A stretch of 64,000 bases of DNA from Streptomyces solicavernae. Its GTDB lineage: Bacteria; Actinomycetota; Actinomycetes; Streptomycetales; Streptomycetaceae. Shown piece after piece: positions 3,285 through 64,000 of this stretch. A program made the position numbers and the translations under genes. Positions within the stretch are counted from its first letter, which is position 1, and each line of letters opens with the position of its first letter. The notes beneath the pieces were generated by a model that had not been told where the DNA came from, made no database searches, and saw only the letters and a program-made list of their open reading frames with translations. The DNA lies in the NCBI RefSeq assembly GCF_029968095.1, contig NZ_JASCIR010000002.1:248001-312000 (forward strand), written 5' to 3'.

Positions 3285-3399
3285 GTCTACCGGAGGTTGA
3301 AGTACTGGTCTACCGGAGGTTGAGGTACTGGTCTACGGGAGGTTGAGGTACTGGTCTACGGGAGGCTGAGGTACTGGTCTACCGGAGGTACAGGCACTG
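3285..3399. repeat. 23-bp tandem repeat, 5 copies, overlapping the end of fdhD
   Basis: Units at 3285, 3308, 3331, 3354 and 3377, the last one diverged. On the minus strand each unit reads Gln-Tyr-Leu-(Asn/Ser)-Leu-Pro-stop in one frame. Because 23 is not a multiple of 3, the stop falls in a different frame in each copy. The stop codon of fdhD (3356-3358) is inside the fourth unit, so the last residues of FdhD are repeat-encoded. Confidence 0.95.
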
Positions 3400-4276
3400 G
3401 GCTGGCCGAGGGCTGGCCGACCGGCGCGGGCGCGAGCCGTTCGGTGTGCGTGTACACGTTCATGGACGAGCCCCGCAGGAACCCCACCAGCGTCAGACCC
3501 GCCTCGTCCGCCAGGTCCACGGCGAGCGACGAGGGGGCGGAGACGGCGGCGAGCATCGGGATGCCCGCCATCACCGCCTTCTGCACGAGCTCGAACGAGG
3601 CCCGCCCGGAGACCATCAGGACGGTGTCCCGCAGCGGCAGCGCCCCGCCCCGCAGGGCGTGTCCGACGACCTTGTCGACGGCGTTGTGCCGCCCCACGTC
3701 CTCGCGCAGGCAGATCAGCTCCCCGCCGGACGTGAACAGCGCGGCCGCGTGCAGCCCGCCGGTGCTGTCGAACACCCGCTGGGCGGCCCGCAGCTGTTCG
3801 GGGAGCGTGGCCAGGGTCTCGGGCGGGATGCGGAGCGGGTCGTCCGCGACGGCCCAGGTCGTCTGCGTACGGACGGCGTCGAGGCTGGCCTTGCCGCACA
3901 GGCCGCAGGACGACGTGGTGTAGAAGTTCCGCTCCAGGGAGGCGTCCGGTGCGGCCACGCCGGGGGCGAGGGCGACGTCCACGACGTTGTACGTGTTGCC
4001 GCCTCCCCCACTCTCCGAGCGGGAGGTGCCCCCGGCCGTCGCGCCCGCGCAGTACCGGATGCCCGCCACGTCACCGGCGCCGTGGACGACGCCCTCGCCG
4101 ACGAGGAACCCGGCGGCGAGGTCGAAGTCGTGGCCCGGGGTGCGCATGGTGATGGTCAACGGCCTTCCGCCGACGCGGAGTTCCATCGGCTCCTCGACGG
4201 TGAGCGTGTCGGGCCGGGTGGTGCTGCGGCCGTCCCGGATGCGCAGGACGGGCTTGCGCGCGGTCACACGTCCCAT
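3356..4276 (-). CDS. fdhD: Formate dehydrogenase accessory sulfurtransferase FdhD (copy 1)
   Basis: 306-aa FdhD. The family transfers sulfur from the IscS-type desulfurase to the molybdenum cofactor of formate dehydrogenase. Visible signatures are SSCGLCGKAS with the catalytic Cys pair C124/C127, the conserved EDVGRHNAVDK segment and the SGRASFEL and AVSAPSSLA blocks. It overlaps the 3' end of the formate dehydrogenase gene by 13 nt (start 4276, stop 4264), implying translational coupling. Two oddities: a Gly/Ser-rich insertion at about residues 82-93 that is absent from the second FdhD in this window and is encoded by a hairpin-like element (4002-4033), and a C-terminal tail ending in QYLSLP that is encoded by a 23-bp tandem repeat. 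Confidence 0.95.
   Translation of the reverse strand: MGRVTARKPVLRIRDGRSTTRPDTLTVEEPMELRVGGRPLTITMRTPGHDFDLAAGFLVGEGVVHGAGDVAGIRYCAGATAGGTSRSESGGGGNTYNVVDVALAPGVAAPDASLERNFYTTSSCGLCGKASLDAVRTQTTWAVADDPLRIPPETLATLPEQLRAAQRVFDSTGGLHAAALFTSGGELICLREDVGRHNAVDKVVGHALRGGALPLRDTVLMVSGRASFELVQKAVMAGIPMLAAVSAPSSLAVDLADEAGLTLVGFLRGSSMNVYTHTERLAPAPVGQPSASPVPVPPVDQYLSLP
4002..4033. repeat. Hairpin-like intergenic-type element inside fdhD
   Basis: A 32-bp stretch starting cctccccca and ending gaggtgccccc has complementary ends (cctccc/gggagg on the minus strand). It resembles hairpin repeats that recur between streptomycete genes. Here it lies in frame within fdhD and encodes roughly GGTSRSESGGG. The paralogous fdhD at 61388-62266 has only a few residues at this place, which supports insertion. 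Confidence 0.55.
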
Positions 4277-6597
4277 GCCGGGCTCCCTTCCTTCGCGCCC
4301 TGCGGCTCCTCGCCGGCGCGCGCGGGTTCCAGTCGTACGAGAACGCCCTTGGAGGTCGGGCAGTTGCTGATGTCGGCGACGCTGTCCAGGGGGACCAGGA
4401 CGTTGGTCTCGGGGTAGTACGCGGCGGCCGAACCGCGGCTCGCCGGATACGCGACGACGCGGAAACTCTCGGCCCGGCGCTCCCGCCCGTCGTGCCAGAC
4501 GCTCACCAGGTCCACCAAGTCACGGTCGGCCAGGCCCAGTTCGGTCAGGTCGTCGGGGTTGACGAGGACGACGCGGCGGGCGTTGTGGATGCCGCGGTAG
4601 CGGTCGTCGGGCGCGTACCAGACGGTGTTCCACTGGTCGTGCGAGCGCAGCGTCTGCAGCAGCAGATGGCCCTTCGGCACCTGTGGCATCGTGAACGCGT
4701 TGCAGGTGAACTGCGCCTTGCCGCTCGCGGTGCGGAACTCGTACGAGTTCACCGGGTTGGGCAGGGTGAACCCGCCGGGGACGGTGACGCGGGCGTTGAA
4801 GTCCTCGAAGCCGGGGACGACGCGGGATATCCGGTCCCGGATGGTGCCGTAGTCCTGCTCGAACTCCCCCCAGGGCAGGGCGGGTTCGTCGCGGAGCGTG
4901 GCGCGCGCCAGCCGGGAGACGATCGCGACCTCGCTGAGCAGCTCGGGCGAGGCGGGCGGGAGTTTGCCGCGGGAGGCGTGGACCTCGCTCATCGAGTCCT
5001 CGACGGTGATGAACTGCTCGACACCGCTCTGCACATCGCGGTCGCTGCGGCCGAGAGTGGGCAGGATCAGCGCGGTGTCGCCGCACACCGTGTGGGAGCG
5101 GTTCAGCTTCGTGGAGACGTGAGCGGTGAGCCGGCACCCGCGCATCGCCTCCTCGGTGACGGCGCTGTCGGGCGTCGCACGCACGAAGTTGCCCGCCACA
5201 CCCAGGAACACCTTGGCGCGTCCCTCGTGCATGGCGCGGATGCCGTCGACCGCGTCCAGGCCGTGGTGCGCGGGCGGCGTGAACCCGAACTCCTTCTCCA
5301 GGGCGTCCAGGAACGGCTGCGGCATCCGCTCCCACACGCCCATGGTGCGGTCGCCCTGGACGTTGCTGTGTCCGCGTACGGGACACACGCCCGCGCCCGG
5401 GCGGCCGAGGTTGCCGCGTGCGAGGAGGAAGTTGACGATCTCGCGGATGGTGGGCACGCCGTGCTTGTGCTGGGTCACGCCCATCGCCCAACAGACAATG
5501 ATCTTACGGGCGTTGAGGACCCGGTCGAACAGCTCGTCGATCTCCTCGCGCGGCAGCCCGGTCGCCGCCAGGACGTCGTCCCAGGACACCTTGCGGGCCT
5601 GCTCGGCGAACTCGGTGAAGCCGGAGGTGTGGGCGTCGATGAAGGCGTGGTCGAGGACCGAGCCGGGGGCCGCGTCGTCGGCCTCCACCAGCATCCGGTT
5701 CAGGACCTGGAACAGCGCGAGGTCGCCGCCTGCGCGGATGTGCAGGAACTGGTCGGCGATCTGGGTGCCCCGGCCGATGATGCCGCGCGCCTTCTGCGGG
5801 TTCTTGAACCGCATGAGCCCCGCCTCCGGCAGCGTGTTCACGGCCACGACCTGCCCGCCGCCCCGCTTGGTCTCCTCCAGGGCGGACAGCATCCGCGGGT
5901 GGTTGGTGCCCGGGTTCTGGCCCACGACGAACACCAGGTCCGACGCGTGGATGTCGTCCAGGGACACGCTGCCCTTGCCGATGCCCAGGGTCTCGCCGAG
6001 CGCGGAGCCGCTGGACTCGTGGCACATGTTGGAACAGTCGGGGAGGTTGTTGGTGCCGTACGCGCGGGCGAAGAGCTGCAGCAGGAACGCGGCCTCGTTG
6101 TTCAGCCGCCCGGATACGTAGAACAGCGCCTCGTCGGGGGAGTCCAGGCCGTTGAGTTCCCGGGCGAGGAGGGTGAACGCCTCGTCCCAGGCGATCGGCT
6201 CGTAATGCGTGCCGCCCGGCCGTTTCACCATCGGCTCGGTCAGACGGCCCTGCTGGTTCAGCCAGTAGTCGGACATGCCGTCGAGCTCGGCGATCGAGTG
6301 CTCGCGGAAGAACTCCCGGGTGACGCGGCGCGAGGTCGCCTCGTCGTTGATGTGCTTCGCGCCGTTCTCGCAGTACTCGTTCAGGTGCCGCTTGCCCGCG
6401 GGCGGCTCCGGCCAGGCACAGCCCGGGCAGTCGATGCCCTTGGCCTGGTTGATGTTCAGCAACGTCAACGCCGTACGCCGCACCGAGGTCTGGCCCAGCG
6501 AGTACTCAAGCGCGTGCGTCACCGCCGGAAAACCCGTCGCCCATGTCTTCGGCTCGGTCACCCTCAGGTCGTCGACAGGATCCTCATTGCTGCCCAT
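4264..6597 (-). CDS. FdhF/YdeP family molybdopterin oxidoreductase (formate dehydrogenase-like)
   Basis: 777-aa cytoplasmic molybdopterin (bis-MGD) oxidoreductase of the FdhF/YdeP type, predicted to oxidise formate or a related small substrate. Near the N-terminus is GIDCPGCAWPEP (C57, C60) with a further Cys at 76, a candidate iron-sulfur site. The segment PDCSNMCHESS holds C188 and C192; the latter is the likely Mo-ligating Cys. There is no selenocysteine. GQNPGTNHPR and the C-terminal molybdopterin-binding region (about 640-777) follow. The ATG at 6597 is chosen because it follows a GGAAAG motif and matches the usual N-terminus; an upstream in-frame start would add 36 unlikely residues. 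It overlaps fdhD by 13 nt and lies 148 bp after the NDH-2 gene. The true substrate is unproven, since E. coli YdeP is linked to acid resistance rather than formate use. Confidence 0.93.
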   Translation of the reverse strand: MGSNEDPVDDLRVTEPKTWATGFPAVTHALEYSLGQTSVRRTALTLLNINQAKGIDCPGCAWPEPPAGKRHLNEYCENGAKHINDEATSRRVTREFFREHSIAELDGMSDYWLNQQGRLTEPMVKRPGGTHYEPIAWDEAFTLLARELNGLDSPDEALFYVSGRLNNEAAFLLQLFARAYGTNNLPDCSNMCHESSGSALGETLGIGKGSVSLDDIHASDLVFVVGQNPGTNHPRMLSALEETKRGGGQVVAVNTLPEAGLMRFKNPQKARGIIGRGTQIADQFLHIRAGGDLALFQVLNRMLVEADDAAPGSVLDHAFIDAHTSGFTEFAEQARKVSWDDVLAATGLPREEIDELFDRVLNARKIIVCWAMGVTQHKHGVPTIREIVNFLLARGNLGRPGAGVCPVRGHSNVQGDRTMGVWERMPQPFLDALEKEFGFTPPAHHGLDAVDGIRAMHEGRAKVFLGVAGNFVRATPDSAVTEEAMRGCRLTAHVSTKLNRSHTVCGDTALILPTLGRSDRDVQSGVEQFITVEDSMSEVHASRGKLPPASPELLSEVAIVSRLARATLRDEPALPWGEFEQDYGTIRDRISRVVPGFEDFNARVTVPGGFTLPNPVNSYEFRTASGKAQFTCNAFTMPQVPKGHLLLQTLRSHDQWNTVWYAPDDRYRGIHNARRVVLVNPDDLTELGLADRDLVDLVSVWHDGRERRAESFRVVAYPASRGSAAAYYPETNVLVPLDSVADISNCPTSKGVLVRLEPARAGEEPQGAKEGSPAWDV

Positions 6598-41027: not shown

Positions 41028-44000
41028 CAGTACTCGACCTCCTGGTTGCGGCGGCGGATGACCGTCACCTCGTCGCGCTGGTTGCCTGTCGGACCCAAGT
41101 AGTTGAAGGCCCAGGAGAGTTGGGCGTAGCCGCCGATGAGGTGGGACGGCTTCATCAGGACCCGGGTCAGGGAGTTGTGGATGCCGCCGCGCTTGCCGGT
41201 GGTCTCCGTCCTCGGCACGTTCACCGTCCGTTCCTGGGCGTGGTGCATGTAGACCGTGCCCTCGGGCATGCGGTGCGAGACGATCGCGCGGGCCACCACC
41301 ACACCGTTGCGGTTGACGGCCTCGATCCAGTCGTTGTCCGCCACGCCGATCGCGGCCGCGTCCTGCGGCGACATCCAGATGCACTGCCCGCCCCGGGACA
41401 GCGACAGCATGAACAGGTTGTCCTGGTACTCGGAGTGGATGGACCACTTGTTGTGCGGGGTCAGATAACGGACCGTGACCTGCTTCTGCCCGTCGGGGCC
41501 CAGCTCCGGTTCCCCGAACAGGCGGTTCATGTCGAGCGGCGGCCGGTACACGGGCAGCGCCTCGCCGAGTTCGTGCATCCAGTCGTGGTCCAGGAAGAAG
41601 TGCTGGCGCCCGGTGAGCGTGTGCCAGGGCTTCAGGTGCTCCGTGTTGAGCGTGAACGCCGTGTAGCGCCGCCCGCCGGACTCGCTGCCCGACCACTCCG
41701 GCGACGTGATCACCGGCACGGGCGCCGCCTGCGTGTCCGCGTACGTGATGCGCTTGCCCTCGGCCTCCGCCGCCAGGTGGGCCATCTCCTGCCCGGTGCG
41801 CTTCTCCAGGGTGTGGAAACCCTGCGTGGCGAGGCGGCCGTTGGTGGTGCCGGACAGGGCGAGGATCGTGTTGCAGGCCTTCACCGCGGTGTCCAGGAGC
41901 GGCCGCCCGTCCGCGGGCCCGCCGCGCGCCCGCCCGTTGCGCTCGCCCAGGTCGTCCACCTCGTGGTCGGGCCGCAGCGCGATGCCCTTCGCGGGCAGGC
42001 CCAACTCCTCGACCAGCGGGCCGAGGGACGCGAACTTGTCGCCGATCGCCGTGTAGTCCCGCTCCACCACCGTCAGGTTCGGCATGGTCTTCCCCGGCAC
42101 CGGTTCGCAGTCCCCGCGCTTCCAGTCCCGTACGACACCTCCCGGCTGGGCCGTCTCGCCCGGGGTGTCGTGCTGCAGCGCGGTGGCCACCAGGTCCTTG
42201 CGTACGCCGAGGTGCGGTGCCGCCAACTCGCTGAGCTTTCGGGCGAGTTGGAGGAACGTCTCGAAGTCGGTGCGCGCCTGCCAGGGCGGGTCGACGGCCG
42301 GGGTGAAGGAGTGCACGTACGGGTGCATGTCCGTGGACGACAGATCGTGCTTCTCGTACCAGGTCGCGGCGGGCAGGACGACATCGCTCAGGAGTGTGGA
42401 CGAGGTCTGCCGGAAGTCCAGGGAGAGCAGCAGGTCGAGCTTGCCCTCGGGCGCCTCCTCGTGCCAGGTCACCTCGCTCGGCCGCTCGTCCGGGCCGGCC
42501 TCCTCGGCGCGCAGCGACGAATGAGTGCCGAGCAGATGCCTGGTGAAGTACTCGGCACCCTTCGCGGACGAGCCGAGCAGGTTGGCCCGCCACAGGGTCA
42601 GCACACGCGGCCAGTTCTCCGGCGCGTCCGGGTCCTCGCAGGCGAACTTGAGGCTGCCGTCCCTGAGTTGGGCGACCGTGTCGGCCACGTCCTGCTCGCC
42701 GAGGTCCAGGGAGTTCCGGTCGAACGTCGGGTACGACGGCATCCAGCCGAGCCGCGCCGACTGCGCCAGGCAGTCCGCCCCGGTCATCCCGTCGAAGCGG
42801 CCCTCGCCCAGCGGCGAGGCGAGCACATCCGCCGCGAAGCGGTCGTAGCGCCACTGGTCGGCGTTGAGGAACCAGTAGGCGGCGCCGATCATCTGCCGCG
42901 GCGGCCGCGACCAGTCGCCCGCGCCCGCGAGCGTCGCCCAGCCGGTGACCGGGCGGCACTTCTCCTGCCCGACATAGTGGGCCCACCCGCCGCCGTTGCG
43001 GCCCTGGCAGCCGGTCAGGGTGAGCAGCGCGAGGAAGCCGCGGTAAATGGTCTCGGAGTGGAACCAGTGGTTGGTGCCCGCGCCCATAAGGATCATGCAG
43101 CGCCCGCGTGACTGCTCGGCGGTCCGCGCGAACTCCCGGGCGATCTTCACGGCCTTCGCCGCCGGTACGGAGGTGTGCGCCTCCTGCCAGCCGGGCGTGC
43201 CGGGCGAGTCGGTGTCCTCGTACGACTGCGGCCACGCGCCGGGCAGGCCCTCGCGGCCCACCCCGTACTGGGCGAGCAGCAGGTCGAAGACCGTGGTGAC
43301 CAGCGGTCCTTCCCGGCCGCCGAGCCGGGTTGCGGGCACACCCCGGGCGAGCACCTCGCCGCGCCCCTGACCGTGCGCCCCGCCGTCCGTGTCGAAGCGG
43401 GGCAGCAGCACCTCGACTCCGGTCGCGAAGTCCTGCCCGTGCAGGGAGAGTTGCGGCGAGACCGAGCCCAGCTGCAGATTCCACTTGCCCTTGCCGGACT
43501 CGGTCCAGCGGAAGCCCAGCGAGCCGTTGGGCACGGCAGGCTGCCCGGTGTTCTCGTCGAGCACGACGGTCTTCCACGCGCCGCCCTCGCCGTCGTCGCC
43601 CAGGTCCGAGGAGCGCAGGAACTTGTCCGGGACGTAGGAGCCGTCCTTCTCCTTGAGCGTCACCAGGAACGGCAGGTCCGTGAACTTGCGGACGTAGTCG
43701 TCGAAGAACTCCGTCTTCCTGTCGACGAAGAACTCCTTGAGGATGACGTGCCCCATCGCGATCGCCAGGGCGCCGTCCGTCCCGGGATGCGGGTGCAGCC
43801 ACTCGTCGGCGAACTTCGCGTTGTCCGCGTAGTCCGGCGCCACGACCACGACCTTCTGGCCCCGGTAGCGTGCCTCGGCCATCCAGTGCGCGTCCGGCGT
43901 CCGCGTCACCGGGACATTCGAACCCCACATCATCAGATAGGCCGCGTCCCACCAGTCACCCGACTCCGGTACGTCGGTCTGGTCGCCGAAGACCTGCGGG

Positions 44001-44704
44001 GAGGCAACGGGGAGGTCCGCGTACCAGTCGTAGAACGACAGCATCGGCGCGCCGATGAGGGAGTGGAAACGGGCGCCCGCCGCGTGCGACACCATCGACA
44101 TCGCCGGAATCGGCGAGAACCCCGCGATCCGGTCGGGGCCGTACTTCCTGATGGTGTGGACATGCGCCGCCGCGACGATCTCAAGCGCCTCGTCCCACGT
44201 CGCCCGCACCAACCCGCCCTTGCCGCGCGCCACTTGGTACGTACGCCGCCGCTCCGCGTCGTCCTGGATGTCCGCCCAGGCGAGCACCGGGTCCTTCCAC
44301 CGCTGCTTCGCCTCGCGGTACAGGTCGAGCAGCACGCCCCGGACGTACGGGTAGCGCACCCGCGTCGGCGAGTACGTGTACCAGGAGAACGCGGCGCCGC
44401 GCGGGCAGCCGCGCGGCTCGTACTCGGGGCGGTCCGGGCCGACCGACGGGTAGTCCGTCTGCTGCGTCTCCCACGTGATGATGCCGTCCTTGACGTACAC
44501 CTTCCAACGGCAGGAACCCGTGCAGTTCACGCCGTGCGTGGAGTTCACCACCTTGTCGTGGCTCCACCGGTCCCGGTAGAACGCGTCCGCCTGCCGGCCG
44601 CCGGACCGCTCGATGCTGTGCAGGTCGGGCGCCGCCTTGCCGCGCCGGAAGAACCTGCCGGCGCGCAGCAGCGCGGCGCCCGGTTCCGTCACATGGTCGG
44701 TCAC
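41027..44704 (-). CDS. narG: Respiratory nitrate reductase alpha subunit NarG
   Basis: 1225-aa catalytic subunit carrying bis-MGD molybdenum and the FS0 [4Fe-4S] cluster; it reduces nitrate to nitrite facing the cytoplasm. The N-terminal HGVNCTGSCRWKV with a later GCPRGAAF forms the His/Cys3 FS0 site. SFYDWYADLPVASPQ and GSNVPVTRTPDAHW surround the Asp that binds Mo. Length and order match Streptomyces NarG. It starts the narGHJI operon. No narK, fnr-like or two-component gene is adjacent in the window. The ATG at 44704 has GGAGC-like sequence upstream. Confidence 0.96.
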   Translation of the reverse strand: MTDHVTEPGAALLRAGRFFRRGKAAPDLHSIERSGGRQADAFYRDRWSHDKVVNSTHGVNCTGSCRWKVYVKDGIITWETQQTDYPSVGPDRPEYEPRGCPRGAAFSWYTYSPTRVRYPYVRGVLLDLYREAKQRWKDPVLAWADIQDDAERRRTYQVARGKGGLVRATWDEALEIVAAAHVHTIRKYGPDRIAGFSPIPAMSMVSHAAGARFHSLIGAPMLSFYDWYADLPVASPQVFGDQTDVPESGDWWDAAYLMMWGSNVPVTRTPDAHWMAEARYRGQKVVVVAPDYADNAKFADEWLHPHPGTDGALAIAMGHVILKEFFVDRKTEFFDDYVRKFTDLPFLVTLKEKDGSYVPDKFLRSSDLGDDGEGGAWKTVVLDENTGQPAVPNGSLGFRWTESGKGKWNLQLGSVSPQLSLHGQDFATGVEVLLPRFDTDGGAHGQGRGEVLARGVPATRLGGREGPLVTTVFDLLLAQYGVGREGLPGAWPQSYEDTDSPGTPGWQEAHTSVPAAKAVKIAREFARTAEQSRGRCMILMGAGTNHWFHSETIYRGFLALLTLTGCQGRNGGGWAHYVGQEKCRPVTGWATLAGAGDWSRPPRQMIGAAYWFLNADQWRYDRFAADVLASPLGEGRFDGMTGADCLAQSARLGWMPSYPTFDRNSLDLGEQDVADTVAQLRDGSLKFACEDPDAPENWPRVLTLWRANLLGSSAKGAEYFTRHLLGTHSSLRAEEAGPDERPSEVTWHEEAPEGKLDLLLSLDFRQTSSTLLSDVVLPAATWYEKHDLSSTDMHPYVHSFTPAVDPPWQARTDFETFLQLARKLSELAAPHLGVRKDLVATALQHDTPGETAQPGGVVRDWKRGDCEPVPGKTMPNLTVVERDYTAIGDKFASLGPLVEELGLPAKGIALRPDHEVDDLGERNGRARGGPADGRPLLDTAVKACNTILALSGTTNGRLATQGFHTLEKRTGQEMAHLAAEAEGKRITYADTQAAPVPVITSPEWSGSESGGRRYTAFTLNTEHLKPWHTLTGRQHFFLDHDWMHELGEALPVYRPPLDMNRLFGEPELGPDGQKQVTVRYLTPHNKWSIHSEYQDNLFMLSLSRGGQCIWMSPQDAAAIGVADNDWIEAVNRNGVVVARAIVSHRMPEGTVYMHHAQERTVNVPRTETTGKRGGIHNSLTRVLMKPSHLIGGYAQLSWAFNYLGPTGNQRDEVTVIRRRNQEVEY

Positions 44705-61387: not shown

Positions 61388-62266
61388 TCAGCCCTGCAGG
61401 GCGATGCGATGGTCGCCCGCGTACACGTTCATGGAGGCGCCGCGCAGGAAGCCCACAAGCGTGAGCCCCGACTCGGCCGCCAGGTCCACGGCGAGGGAGG
61501 ACGGCGCCGAGACCGCGGCGAGTACCGGAATCCCGGCCATCACGGCCTTCTGCGCCAGCTCGAACGAGGCGCGCCCGGAGACAAGCAGGATCGTGCGGGC
61601 CAGCGGAAGGCGGCCGTCCTGCAGGGCGCGGCCGACCAGCTTGTCGACCGCGTTGTGCCGCCCCACGTCCTCCCGCACGTCGATCAGCTCGCCGTCCTCC
61701 GTGAACAGCGCCGCCGCGTGCAGGCCCCCGGTCCGGTCGAAGACCCGCTGGGCCGCCCGCAGCCGGTCGGGGAGGCAGGCGAGCAGTTCGGGGTCGAGCC
61801 GGACCGGGGGAGTGCTGCGTTTCTGGTGGTCCGCGCCGTGCGTGCCGTCGCCGGCCGCGTCGTCGATGGGCCAGCGCGCCGTGGTACGTACGGCGTCCAG
61901 GCTGGCCTTGCCGCAGAGACCGCAGGACGAGGACGTGTAGACGTTCCGTTCCAGGGTGATGTCCGGGAGGACGACGCCGGGCGCGGTCGACACGTCCACC
62001 ACGTTGTACGTGTTGGAGCCCTCCGCCGTGGCGCCCGCGCAGTACACGATGGAGCGCAGCTCGTCCGCGTCGCCGAGGACGCCCTCGCTCACCAGGAACC
62101 CGGCGGCGAGCGCGAAGTCGTCGCCCGGTGTGCGCATCGTGATCGCGAGGGGCTTGCCGTTCAGGCGGATTTCCAGCGGCTCCTCCGCGACCAGCGTGTC
62201 CGGGCGGGTCGAGACCGCCCCGTCCCGGACACGGATGACGCGGCGTCGCTCGGTGACGCGTCCCAT
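61388..62266 (-). CDS. fdhD: Formate dehydrogenase accessory sulfurtransferase FdhD (copy 2)
   Basis: 292-aa FdhD with the catalytic pair C115/C118 in SSSCGLCGKAS, the REDVGRHNAVDK motif and SGRASFELAQK. It is paralogous to the FdhD at 3356-4276 (identical start MGRVT and blocks) but lacks the Gly/Ser insertion near residue 82 and instead has a charged insertion around 130-150 (GDGTHGADHQKRS). It starts 7 nt after the stop of the iron-sulfur FDH subunit gene and is likely co-translated with it. The gene stands exactly where the molybdopterin catalytic domain of an NAD-linked FDH would be encoded. Confidence 0.95.
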   Translation of the reverse strand: MGRVTERRRVIRVRDGAVSTRPDTLVAEEPLEIRLNGKPLAITMRTPGDDFALAAGFLVSEGVLGDADELRSIVYCAGATAEGSNTYNVVDVSTAPGVVLPDITLERNVYTSSSCGLCGKASLDAVRTTARWPIDDAAGDGTHGADHQKRSTPPVRLDPELLACLPDRLRAAQRVFDRTGGLHAAALFTEDGELIDVREDVGRHNAVDKLVGRALQDGRLPLARTILLVSGRASFELAQKAVMAGIPVLAAVSAPSSLAVDLAAESGLTLVGFLRGASMNVYAGDHRIALQG

Positions 62267-62273
62267 CAGGTGA

Positions 62274-63134
62274 TCAGTCCCGGTTCTGTACGTGTTGGTA
62301 GCCGAAGCGGCCCTTGATGCAGAGGTTGCCGTGGGTCACCGGATTGTCGTGCGGCGAGGTGACCTTGACGATCTCATTGTCCTGCACGTGCAGCGTCAGA
62401 TTGCAGCCCACACCGCAGTACGCGCACACCGTGGTCGTCTCCGTCTGCGCCTCCTCGTCCCACGTACCGGCCGCCCGCATGTCGAACTCGGACTTGAAGC
62501 TCAGCGCGCCCGTGGGGCACACCTCGATGCAGTTGCCGCAGTACACGCACGCCGAGTCGGTGAGCGGGGCGTCGTGCTCGACGGCGATCCGGGCGTCGAA
62601 GCCGCGCCCGGCGACGGCGATGGCGAAGGTGTTCTGCCACTGCTCGCCGCAGGCGTCCACGCACTTGTAGCAGAGGATGCACTTGTCGTAGTCGCGTACG
62701 TACAGGTCGTTGTCGACCTTCGGGGACTCGTTCAGGCGGGCCGCGTCCGGGCCGAAGCGGCCGGGCTTCGCCTCGTACTCCTTCAGCCACTCCTGGACGC
62801 GCGGCGTGGTCGACAAGTCGACCGAGGACGCGAGGAGTTCGAGGACCAGCCTGCGGCTGTGCCGGGCGCGCTCGGTGTCCGTGCGGACCGCCATCCCGGG
62901 CTCGGCCCTGCGGGAACAGGCGGGTGCCAGGGTGCGTGCGCCCTCGACCTCCACCACGCACACCCGGCAGGCGTTCTTGGGGGTGAGTGTGTCGCCCTCG
63001 CAGAGCGTCGGGATGTCCTTGCCGGCGGCCCGGCAGGCGTCCAGGACGGTGGCGCCCTCGGGGACCCGGACCGGTTCGCCGTCGAGCGTGAACTCCACGA
63101 GGCGACGCGGCGGCTGCAGCGGAATGGCGGTCAT
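62274..63134 (-). CDS. NAD-linked formate dehydrogenase iron-sulfur subunit lacking the catalytic domain
   Basis: 286 aa. The order is that of the N-terminal third of FdsA/HoxU-like FDH alpha subunits: a [2Fe-2S] domain (C45, C56, C59, C73), two ferredoxin [4Fe-4S] clusters (C152-C162 and C196-C206) and then the [4Fe-4S] motif that normally opens the molybdopterin domain (C237, C240, C244, C272). It stops at CIKGRFGYQHVQNRD, where the catalytic domain would begin. It would pass electrons between a catalytic partner and the NuoF-like subunit upstream. The ATG at 63134 is one of four near-identical start regions in a tandem array; only this one leads into the domain. Confidence 0.93.
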   Translation of the reverse strand: MTAIPLQPPRRLVEFTLDGEPVRVPEGATVLDACRAAGKDIPTLCEGDTLTPKNACRVCVVEVEGARTLAPACSRRAEPGMAVRTDTERARHSRRLVLELLASSVDLSTTPRVQEWLKEYEAKPGRFGPDAARLNESPKVDNDLYVRDYDKCILCYKCVDACGEQWQNTFAIAVAGRGFDARIAVEHDAPLTDSACVYCGNCIEVCPTGALSFKSEFDMRAAGTWDEEAQTETTTVCAYCGVGCNLTLHVQDNEIVKVTSPHDNPVTHGNLCIKGRFGYQHVQNRD

Positions 63135-63251
63135 GCGTACGCTCCCAGAAGGTCGAGGCGGTCGATGGCGGTCATGCGTAGTCCCGAGACGGCCGGTGGC
63201 GGTGGCGGTCATGCGTACGTCCCGAGACGGCCGGTGGCAGTCATGCGTACG
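63124..63251 (-). repeat. Reiterated stop/start region, 4 copies, 32-41 bp apart
   Basis: Copies of ggcggtcatgcgtac occur at about 63126, 63167, 63204 and 63236 (minus strand: gtacgcATGACCGCC). The one nearest the NuoF-like gene contains that gene's TGA overlapping an ATG (ATGA); the one farthest holds the used start of the iron-sulfur gene. An original 4-nt gene overlap appears to have expanded to about 107 bp. Confidence 0.92.
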
Positions 63252-64000
63252 TTCCAAGGCGGTCGATGGCCGACTCGACGGCGTTCCACGCGGTCTGGCC
63301 GAGGCCGCAGATCGAGGCGTCCTTCATGGCCCGCCCCACGTCCCGCAACAGCGCGATGTCGTCCGCCGCGGCGGCCCCCGTACGCTCGGCGATCCGGTGC
63401 AGCGCCTCCTCCTGCCGTACGGTGCCGACCCGGCAGGGCACGCACTGTCCGCAGGACTCGTCGCGGAAGAACTCGGCGATACGGAGGAGCAGGCGGGGCA
63501 GCGGGACGGTGTCGTCGAGGGCGAGCACGACGCCCGAGCCGAGGGTGGTGCCGGCCGCGCGCGTCCCCTCGAAGGTCAGCGGGATGTCCAGCTCGTCGCC
63601 GCGCACGAAGCCGCCCGCGGCACCGCCGAGCAGTACCGCCCTCAACTGGTCCGGCTTGCCCGCGAGTTCGAGCAGATCGCCGAGGGTCGCGCCGAACGGC
63701 AGCTCGTAGATGCCGGGGCGTTCGACCTTCCCGGAGACGCAGAACAGTTTCGGCCCGGTGGAGGCGGGGGTGCCGATGGCCGCGTACGCCTGCGCGCCCA
63801 TGGTCAGGATCGGCAGGACGTTCACCAGCGTCTCGACGTTGTTGGCGGTCGTCGGCTTGCCGAACAGGCCCTTCTCCACGGGGAACGGCGGCTTGGAGCG
63901 GGGCTCGCCCCGGTAGCCCTCGATGGAGTTGAACAGCGCGGTCTCCTCACCGCAGATGTACGCGCCCGCGCCGCGCCGGATCTCGATGTCGAAGGCGTAG
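63241..64000 (-). CDS. NuoF-like NADH-binding subunit of NAD-linked formate dehydrogenase (partial)
   Basis: The C-terminal 252 codons (5' end outside the window) of the flavin/NADH-binding subunit. The FMN/iron-sulfur motifs are GAGAYICGEETALFNSIEG, PRSKPPFP and GLFGKPTTANNVET, and the C-terminal [4Fe-4S] cluster is SCGQCVPCRVG plus a late Cys in ASICGLG. It would reduce NAD+ with electrons from formate oxidation, or the reverse. Its TGA is in the first copy of the reiterated stop/start array leading to the iron-sulfur subunit gene. A NuoE-like gene is expected further upstream. Confidence 0.94.
   Translation of the reverse strand, partial: YAFDIEIRRGAGAYICGEETALFNSIEGYRGEPRSKPPFPVEKGLFGKPTTANNVETLVNVLPILTMGAQAYAAIGTPASTGPKLFCVSGKVERPGIYELPFGATLGDLLELAGKPDQLRAVLLGGAAGGFVRGDELDIPLTFEGTRAAGTTLGSGVVLALDDTVPLPRLLLRIAEFFRDESCGQCVPCRVGTVRQEEALHRIAERTGAAAADDIALLRDVGRAMKDASICGLGQTAWNAVESAIDRLGTYA

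Follow-up and report, generated by a model that had tools for sequence, protein, structure and literature searches.

A predicted NAD-linked formate dehydrogenase with its alpha chain divided over two genes within the molybdenum-cofactor module

How can a bacterial locus encode the electron-transfer part of an NAD-linked formate dehydrogenase (FDH) and apparently nothing to oxidise formate with? The question is raised by one end of a 64,000-nucleotide stretch of Streptomyces solicavernae DNA (the window; contig C12:248001-312000), which holds the genes of a diaphorase, of an iron-sulfur (FeS) protein and of the accessory protein FdhD. A preliminary description of the window had recorded that the FeS protein stops just before the molybdopterin domain and had concluded that the module has no catalytic subunit. 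This absence turned out to be an artefact of the window edge: the gene of a 663-aa protein holding the missing part (cat) is located just outside, about 1.2 kb past the edge, in the adjoining stretch (L009). The locus very probably encodes a cytoplasmic NAD-linked FDH, dependent on molybdenum (or tungsten), whose alpha chain is divided over two genes within the Mo-cofactor module. The case is made from sequence: separate genes, exact complementarity of the two halves, conserved cluster and active-site residues, co-occurrence, and selenocysteine (Sec) accompanied by a hairpin resembling a selenocysteine insertion sequence (SECIS).

The genes follow one another as panE - cat - nuoEF - FeS - fdhD, with nuoEF placed between the genes of the two halves (Table 1). 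The short FeS gene is real, as had been described: it is an open reading frame (ORF) of 286 aa, with fdhD 7 nt downstream, and a Pfam scan of its product detected Fer2_4, Fer4 matches of the ferredoxin type in two stretches and, at residues 232-284, PF04879 (Molybdop_Fe4S4), whereas PF00384 was not detected. The protein can be read as a [2Fe-2S] cluster, two ferredoxin-type clusters and the Mo-proximal [4Fe-4S] cluster. It ends with ...CIKGRFGYQHVQNRD-stop, where the domain of the Mo-proximal [4Fe-4S] cluster would give way to the molybdopterin domain. The diaphorase is NuoF-like, as proposed, and is not NuoF alone, because PF01257, PF01512, PF10531 and PF10589 occur together in one 661-aa NuoE-NuoF fusion. 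The cat gene ends 9 nt before nuoEF, and its product carries PF00384 and PF01568 and lacks PF04879. It has a Mo-bisMGD (bis-molybdopterin guanine dinucleotide) catalytic domain with the FDH active site, namely Cys or Sec followed by His, and the RGQNN arginine. The active-site Cys lies within NNVDSCNRTCHAPSV and is encoded by TGC in this genome. The preliminary description had advised looking beyond the window for a catalytic gene, and its idea of a split FDH in need of a separate catalytic partner was right; the complementary gene is in the same cluster. A full-length catalytic subunit just upstream, named there as the observation that would speak against a split, was not what was found: the upstream gene encodes a complementary piece.

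The complementarity of the two proteins is precise. On the Fdh-alpha model TIGR01591 (672 positions), FeS residues 235-286 align with positions 1-52 and cat residues 25-654 with positions 51-672, so that the first 50 positions of the model are located on the other gene. On the single chain of Rhodobacter capsulatus FdsA (6tg9_A), FeS residues 13-286 correspond to 25-307 and cat residues 25-654 to 307-932. No variation was seen in the four Fe4S4 cysteines or in CxKGRFG among 33 aligned FeS proteins, nor in NRT(C/U)H or RGQNNVQGGGDMG among 26 aligned cat proteins. The AlphaFold2 model of cat (predicted local distance difference test, pLDDT, 76.4; predicted template modelling score, pTM, 0.80) had E. 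coli FDH-H (1fdi) as its best Foldseek match, with an E value of 9.6e-54. In FDH-H, a single domain is formed by the first 60 residues and segments from further along the chain, which implies that the two halves would have to dock tightly.

In the proposed enzyme, the 663-aa cat protein would hold the bis-MGD cofactor, through Cys here and through Sec in most relatives, and oxidise formate. From a chain of its own, the 286-aa FeS protein would supply a short wire of clusters and the cluster that first accepts the electrons, the Mo-proximal [4Fe-4S] with the CxKG lysine. The NuoE-NuoF fusion would then hand the electrons via flavin mononucleotide to NAD+, and FdhD would activate the cofactor. 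We infer the docking of the halves, the electron path, the direction from formate to CO2 and the metal.

The next line of evidence came from the conservation of the arrangement. Among 150 genomes of the family, FeS matches (E<=1e-30) were found in 27: 12 with the intact module (the genome of the window and 11 others at 84-92% FeS identity), three with FeS pieces only and 12 at 36-42% identity. The FeS protein has 286-288 aa and an identical end position in all 12 intact loci, and fdhD adjoins it in these loci (in L049 it is cut by the contig end). This shows that the stop is not due to chance, in agreement with the earlier claim that it is a clean stop and not the mark of a frameshifted relic. 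The loci with pieces only (L051-L053) retain the C-terminal part of FeS beside fdhD, and those of the 36-42% matches that were examined (such as L054-L056) are FDH loci of canonical order. Sampling of 396 genomes of the phylum revealed an additional tier of FeS proteins at 57-75% identity, from which 22 loci were fetched; cat was within reach in 20 of them and the order was cat - nuoEF - FeS in 20/20. A scan of named genomes, from which the best 80 of 560 relatives were used, assigned 71 of these 80 to the split clade on FeS identity; cat lies within the locus in 57 of the 71. In this set cat was upstream in 57/57 and the FeS stop fell 0-69 aa past the matched region.

When the genome sets, which may share species, were combined, separate genes with cat upstream were found in 89/89 fetched loci holding both halves. 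The one-chain alpha organisation (NuoG-like N-terminal part, Fe4S4 and Mo domains) is replaced in all of them by two genes in reversed order, and no fused gene of the split clade was present among the 89 loci. Within Actinomycetota, the clade includes Acidimicrobiia, Thermoleophilia, Streptomyces, Streptosporangium, Nonomuraea, Amycolatopsis, Kutzneria and Pseudonocardia. Beyond the phylum, all members are metagenome-assembled genomes (MAGs), labelled as Acidobacteria, Chloroflexi, Gemmatimonadetes, Planctomycetota, Hyphomicrobiales, Bacillota, Chthonomonas and a delta proteobacterium. Judged by these sequences, the split arrangement is widespread and conserved across several bacterial phyla, through MAGs outside Actinomycetota. 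Plasmid records that match the FeS protein number 218, all at <60% identity, and the three examined encode full-length or unannotated alphas.

The two halves also occur together. With thresholds of >800 bits for cat and >230 bits for FeS, cat was detected in 40 and FeS in 41 of the 396 phylum genomes, and both in 38; FeS alone was found in G295, G345 and G274, and cat alone in G408 and G376. In four of these five genomes (G408, G376, G295 and G345) a contig end falls in or beside nuoEF. In two genomes, G642 (Halopolyspora algeriensis) and G715, cat is located about 11-16 kb away on the opposite strand, a separation that cannot be explained by a fused or read-through chain.

Further evidence that the split genes work comes from the way in which many of them are decoded. 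The active-site codon was typed in 85 cat genes of the 89 loci (L097, L138, L160 and L180 remained untyped). The place where the genome of the window has its codon for the active-site Cys (NNxDSCNRT[U]HAPSV) is taken by an in-frame TGA in 54/85, and by TGC or TGT in the other 31. In 52/54 Sec-type genes, a GGTCT loop closed by a stem of at least 6 bp follows about 20 nt later; in the Cys-type genes there is no stem in 29/31 and a stem of 1 bp in 2/31, so that stems of at least 3 bp occur in 0/31. The SECIS-like assignment is based on this stem count because an Rfam scan of nine loci at the gathering threshold gave no SECIS match. A tRNA-Sec scoring at least 60 bits was found in 19/19 Sec-type genomes tested and in 4/12 Cys-type genomes, with a threshold set after the scores were known; E<=0.001 was uninformative, as 34/34 genomes and 14/14 controls matched, presumably through other tRNAs. 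The features of a selenoprotein FDH (UGA, SECIS-like hairpin and tRNA-Sec) are thus found in relatives and not in the gene of the window, which is of the Cys type, with no UGA, no SECIS-like hairpin and a best tRNA-Sec score in its genome of 41 bits, below the 47-bit cut-off. Active Sec recoding in the relatives is good evidence of working split genes. The PanE/ApbA-type gene is distributed along the same line, being present in 30/31 Cys-type loci and 0/54 Sec-type loci; in the Sec-type Halopolyspora (L168/L291), panE precedes nuoEF and cat is elsewhere.

A probable counterpart of this enzyme has been studied at the protein level. According to the available text of PMC7176365, Actinomycetospora chiangmaiensis has three Sec-FDHs, and FDH3 (FdhA3/FdhB3/FdhC3) of strain DSM 45062, termed cytoplasmic and NAD+-dependent, consists of three proteins of 640 (with Sec), 614 and 316 aa. 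All three were detected in the proteome, 3.1-, 2.8- and 2.2-fold up on 2-hydroxyisobutyric acid (2-HIBA), and formate removal by this bacterium is selenium-dependent (PMC7176365). The split locus of G744, in which the choice of starts is open, can be read as exactly 640/614/316 aa and so matches FDH3 in a comparison of subunit lengths. FDH3 differs from the enzyme of the window in having Sec where cat has Cys. The split enzyme would hence already be known as a three-subunit FDH (FDH3, PMC7176365), and selenium-dependent formate removal and FDH3 induction bear only indirectly on the formate:NAD+ oxidoreductase activity predicted for the split module. The division of the chain itself is not remarked upon in the available main text of that article, where the term 'iron-sulfur' is absent. 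Nor did full-text searches of open-licence articles, PMC7325909, PMC8808070, PMC13332983, PMC9751293, PMC10100899 and PMC13397495 among them, show a description of a split alpha chain.

Of the other explanations, the one that survives best, although it is very improbable, is a split molybdoenzyme acting on a substrate other than formate. NasC/NasA models match cat at 371-398 bits, and formate as the substrate of this locus is predicted from sequence. Against this, the Fdh-alpha model is the best one for cat by over 200 bits, the protein has the Cys/Sec-His motif of FDHs, fdhD adjoins the module in the 12 family loci mentioned above, and the data on FDH3 point to formate (PMC7176365, in its available part). 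Decay of a full-length FDH alpha into a pseudogene is very hard to sustain. FeS pieces stand alone beside fdhD in some Streptomyces and relatives (L051, L052, L053, L183 and L191), and the genome encodes a canonical full-length alpha as well, as decay would allow. However, the order of the halves is reversed, and one frameshift or stop cannot yield the split genes; both halves are intact and conserved across many lineages, and the split cat proteins form one clade (Shimodaira-Hasegawa-like approximate likelihood ratio test, SH-aLRT, 100). A pseudogene split by a frameshift or stop was rejected on the reversed order and the conservation. Equally remote is the proposal of the preliminary description that the partner may be the FdhF/YdeP-type protein encoded at 4264-6597 on the same contig, about 57 kb off: both are molybdopterin oxidoreductases with fdhD beside each gene, but that protein belongs to a different family (TIGR01701, for which cat scores 273.6 bits against a cut-off of 582) and has matches at E<=1e-100 in 150/150 family genomes versus an intact split module in 12/150, and the complementary half sits in the FeS gene cluster itself.

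Several observations weigh against a divided alpha chain forming a working FDH. The TIGR01591 score of cat alone, 611 bits, is below the curated cut-off of 666. The AlphaFold2 model of the FeS protein is poor (pLDDT 67.8, pTM 0.57), and its best structural matches, RaFDH (9ktl), HydABCSL (7t30) and RcFDH (6tg9), lend weak support at a root-mean-square deviation near 9. Cat is absent from a few loci, such as L172, whose genome has nuoEF and FeS and no cat match genome-wide, and frame changes occur inside nuoEF in L040, inside panE in L041 and inside cat in L097. In A. chiangmaiensis the membrane-bound FDH1 was likewise up, and the selenium-dependent formate removal is not assignable to FDH3 alone (PMC7176365, in its available part).

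The origin of the divided enzyme was approached with quick trees in which long branches were flagged. In a tree of 100 cat domains, which included 36 split loci picked for spread and omitted 10 other named rows that were near-copies or fragments, the split rows formed one clade. Its sister (support 100) was f18, a group of FdhF-type selenoproteins that are not split, and the FdsA-type alphas stood elsewhere. When 93 N-terminal parts of FeS were placed in a tree, the split rows again formed one clade (99), with three Chloroflexota loci as sister (99). In these loci the FeS protein already has a gene of its own, which lacks the Fe4S4 domain, and their catalytic domain groups among the FdsA-types in the cat tree. 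The nearest relatives of the two chains are thus not the same, and an origin by assembly from two sources is suggested. By mean identity the Fe4S4 domain (50 columns) resembles the FdsA side, with 0.657 to the rows from Chloroflexota, 0.533 to those of FdsA type and 0.491 to f18; its nearest non-split row is FdsA-type in 35/35 cases and Chloroflexota L193/L195 in 28/35. Likelihood tests on the same 50 columns gave a best tree that joins the split rows with f18. No alternative was rejected (p value of the approximately unbiased test, p-AU, 0.37-0.56; p 0.76 in a second test). A tentative reading, held somewhat short of even odds, is that the module is a chimera of two FDH lineages. Its cat would come from the FdhF-type selenoprotein line and would have lost its own proximal [4Fe-4S] domain, the place of which is now taken in trans by a [4Fe-4S] domain of FdsA-like kind, joined to a free-standing NuoG-like protein with its closest relatives in the Chloroflexota modules. 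The Mo site and its first acceptor would then reside on separately inherited proteins of a natural split selenoenzyme. The Chloroflexota loci (L193, L195 and L196) are modular FDHs with a FeS gene without Fe4S4 and a catalytic gene with its own Fe4S4, a possible intermediate.

Some features of the surroundings are recorded here together with the coordinates (Table 1). A 38-nt tandem unit repeats the stop-start ATGA overlap at the nuoEF/FeS junction, which is a plain 4-nt overlap in 29/34 compared loci. A 21-nt unit at the start of cat encodes RTPKTY three times and was not seen in the cat starts of 11 family relatives. The canonical FDH of the genome (nuoE, nuoF and full-length alpha, with a 954-aa frame) is on C22. 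In the five loci reduced to FeS pieces, cat and nuoEF have been lost, and in L183 a deletion fuses panE to the end of nuoEF. In L056 (G042), an alpha of canonical type is broken by a local duplication, with the frame changing right where Fe4S4 meets the molybdopterin domain; this may be an assembly error.

Table 1. Coordinates of the split gene cluster and of other features in the window (C12:248001-312000) and the adjoining stretch (L009)
Feature	Position	Strand	Size	Remarks
FeS gene (N-half of FDH alpha chain)	62274..63134	-	286 aa	own ORF
fdhD, formate dehydrogenase accessory sulfurtransferase	61388..62266	-	292 aa	PF02634; NCBIfam NF001943 392 bits, cut-off 269
nuoEF, C-terminal part	63241..64000	-	661 aa (whole gene)	continues past window end to C12:313226
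cat (catalytic C-half), outside window	C12:313236-315227 = L009:4737-6728	-	663 aa	
panE (PanE/ApbA-type), outside window	L009:6725-7714	-		4-nt overlap with cat
FdhF/YdeP-type protein	4267-6597		777 aa	TIGR01701 901 bits, cut-off 582
fdhD-like ORF	3356-4276			adjoins FdhF/YdeP-type gene
Tandem unit at nuoEF/FeS junction	63124-63238 (L009:2625-2739)		38 nt	3 copies
Tandem unit at start of cat	L009:6648-6715		21 nt	3.2 copies
Another PF00384 match	about 42239-44362	-	1445-codon open frame	respiratory nitrate reductase alpha, guessed by length

Metal-dependent FDHs, which are investigated for CO2 reduction, are difficult to take apart. With the Mo chain and the first iron-sulfur relay on separate proteins, the need for covalent joining within the Mo module can be tested, and a natural split would permit relay swaps and the separate loading of clusters and cofactor. 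The origin of Cys forms from Sec forms is likewise testable within the split family. There is also a warning for annotation. At 611 bits, automatic naming via TIGR01591 would miss cat as an Fdh-alpha, and in Sec-type genomes the UGA is a false stop; for both reasons complete enzymes can be mistaken for orphan diaphorases.

A close known counterpart in overall composition is FdsABG(D) of R. capsulatus and Cupriavidus necator (6tg9, 6tga, 6vw7), which has the same three functional modules and whose FdsA is tiled without a gap by FeS and cat. FdsA is, however, one chain of 958 residues, whereas the split module uses two genes arranged the other way round and a NuoE-NuoF fusion, and lacks the His-Cys3 [4Fe-4S] motif in the N-terminal part of alpha. 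By pattern matching this motif was found in 0/89 split FeS proteins, in 18/18 actinobacterial and 24/24 Bacillota fused alphas and in the canonical alpha of the same genome. The Chloroflexota sister lacks it too, as do 2/3 plasmid FdsA references by this pattern, and the motif may not define the FdsABG-type family. MeFDH1 of Methylorubrum extorquens (7vw6, 8j83) has a 572-aa beta subunit that matches the fused diaphorase, and a plasmid relative (L246) has one 'subunit E' gene adjoining a full-length alpha; unlike the split module, MeFDH1 has all 989 aa of its alpha in a single chain. For cat itself, E. coli FDH-H is the best match by structure and FdhF of the hydrogen-dependent CO2 reductase (HDCR; 7qv7) the best by sequence; both, unlike cat, combine the [4Fe-4S] domain and the Mo cofactor in one chain. 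The unsplit selenoproteins of the sister group f18 (L256-L262), about 49-52% identical to the cat of the window, have Fe4S4 fused and fdhD upstream, and the fetched stretches gave no match to a NuoG-like FeS protein or to nuoEF. A molybdopterin catalytic chain that extends over two polypeptides is found in FwdB/FwdD of formylmethanofuran dehydrogenase, where the separate part is the C-terminal dinucleotide-binding domain; in the split module, it is the N-terminal [4Fe-4S] domain.

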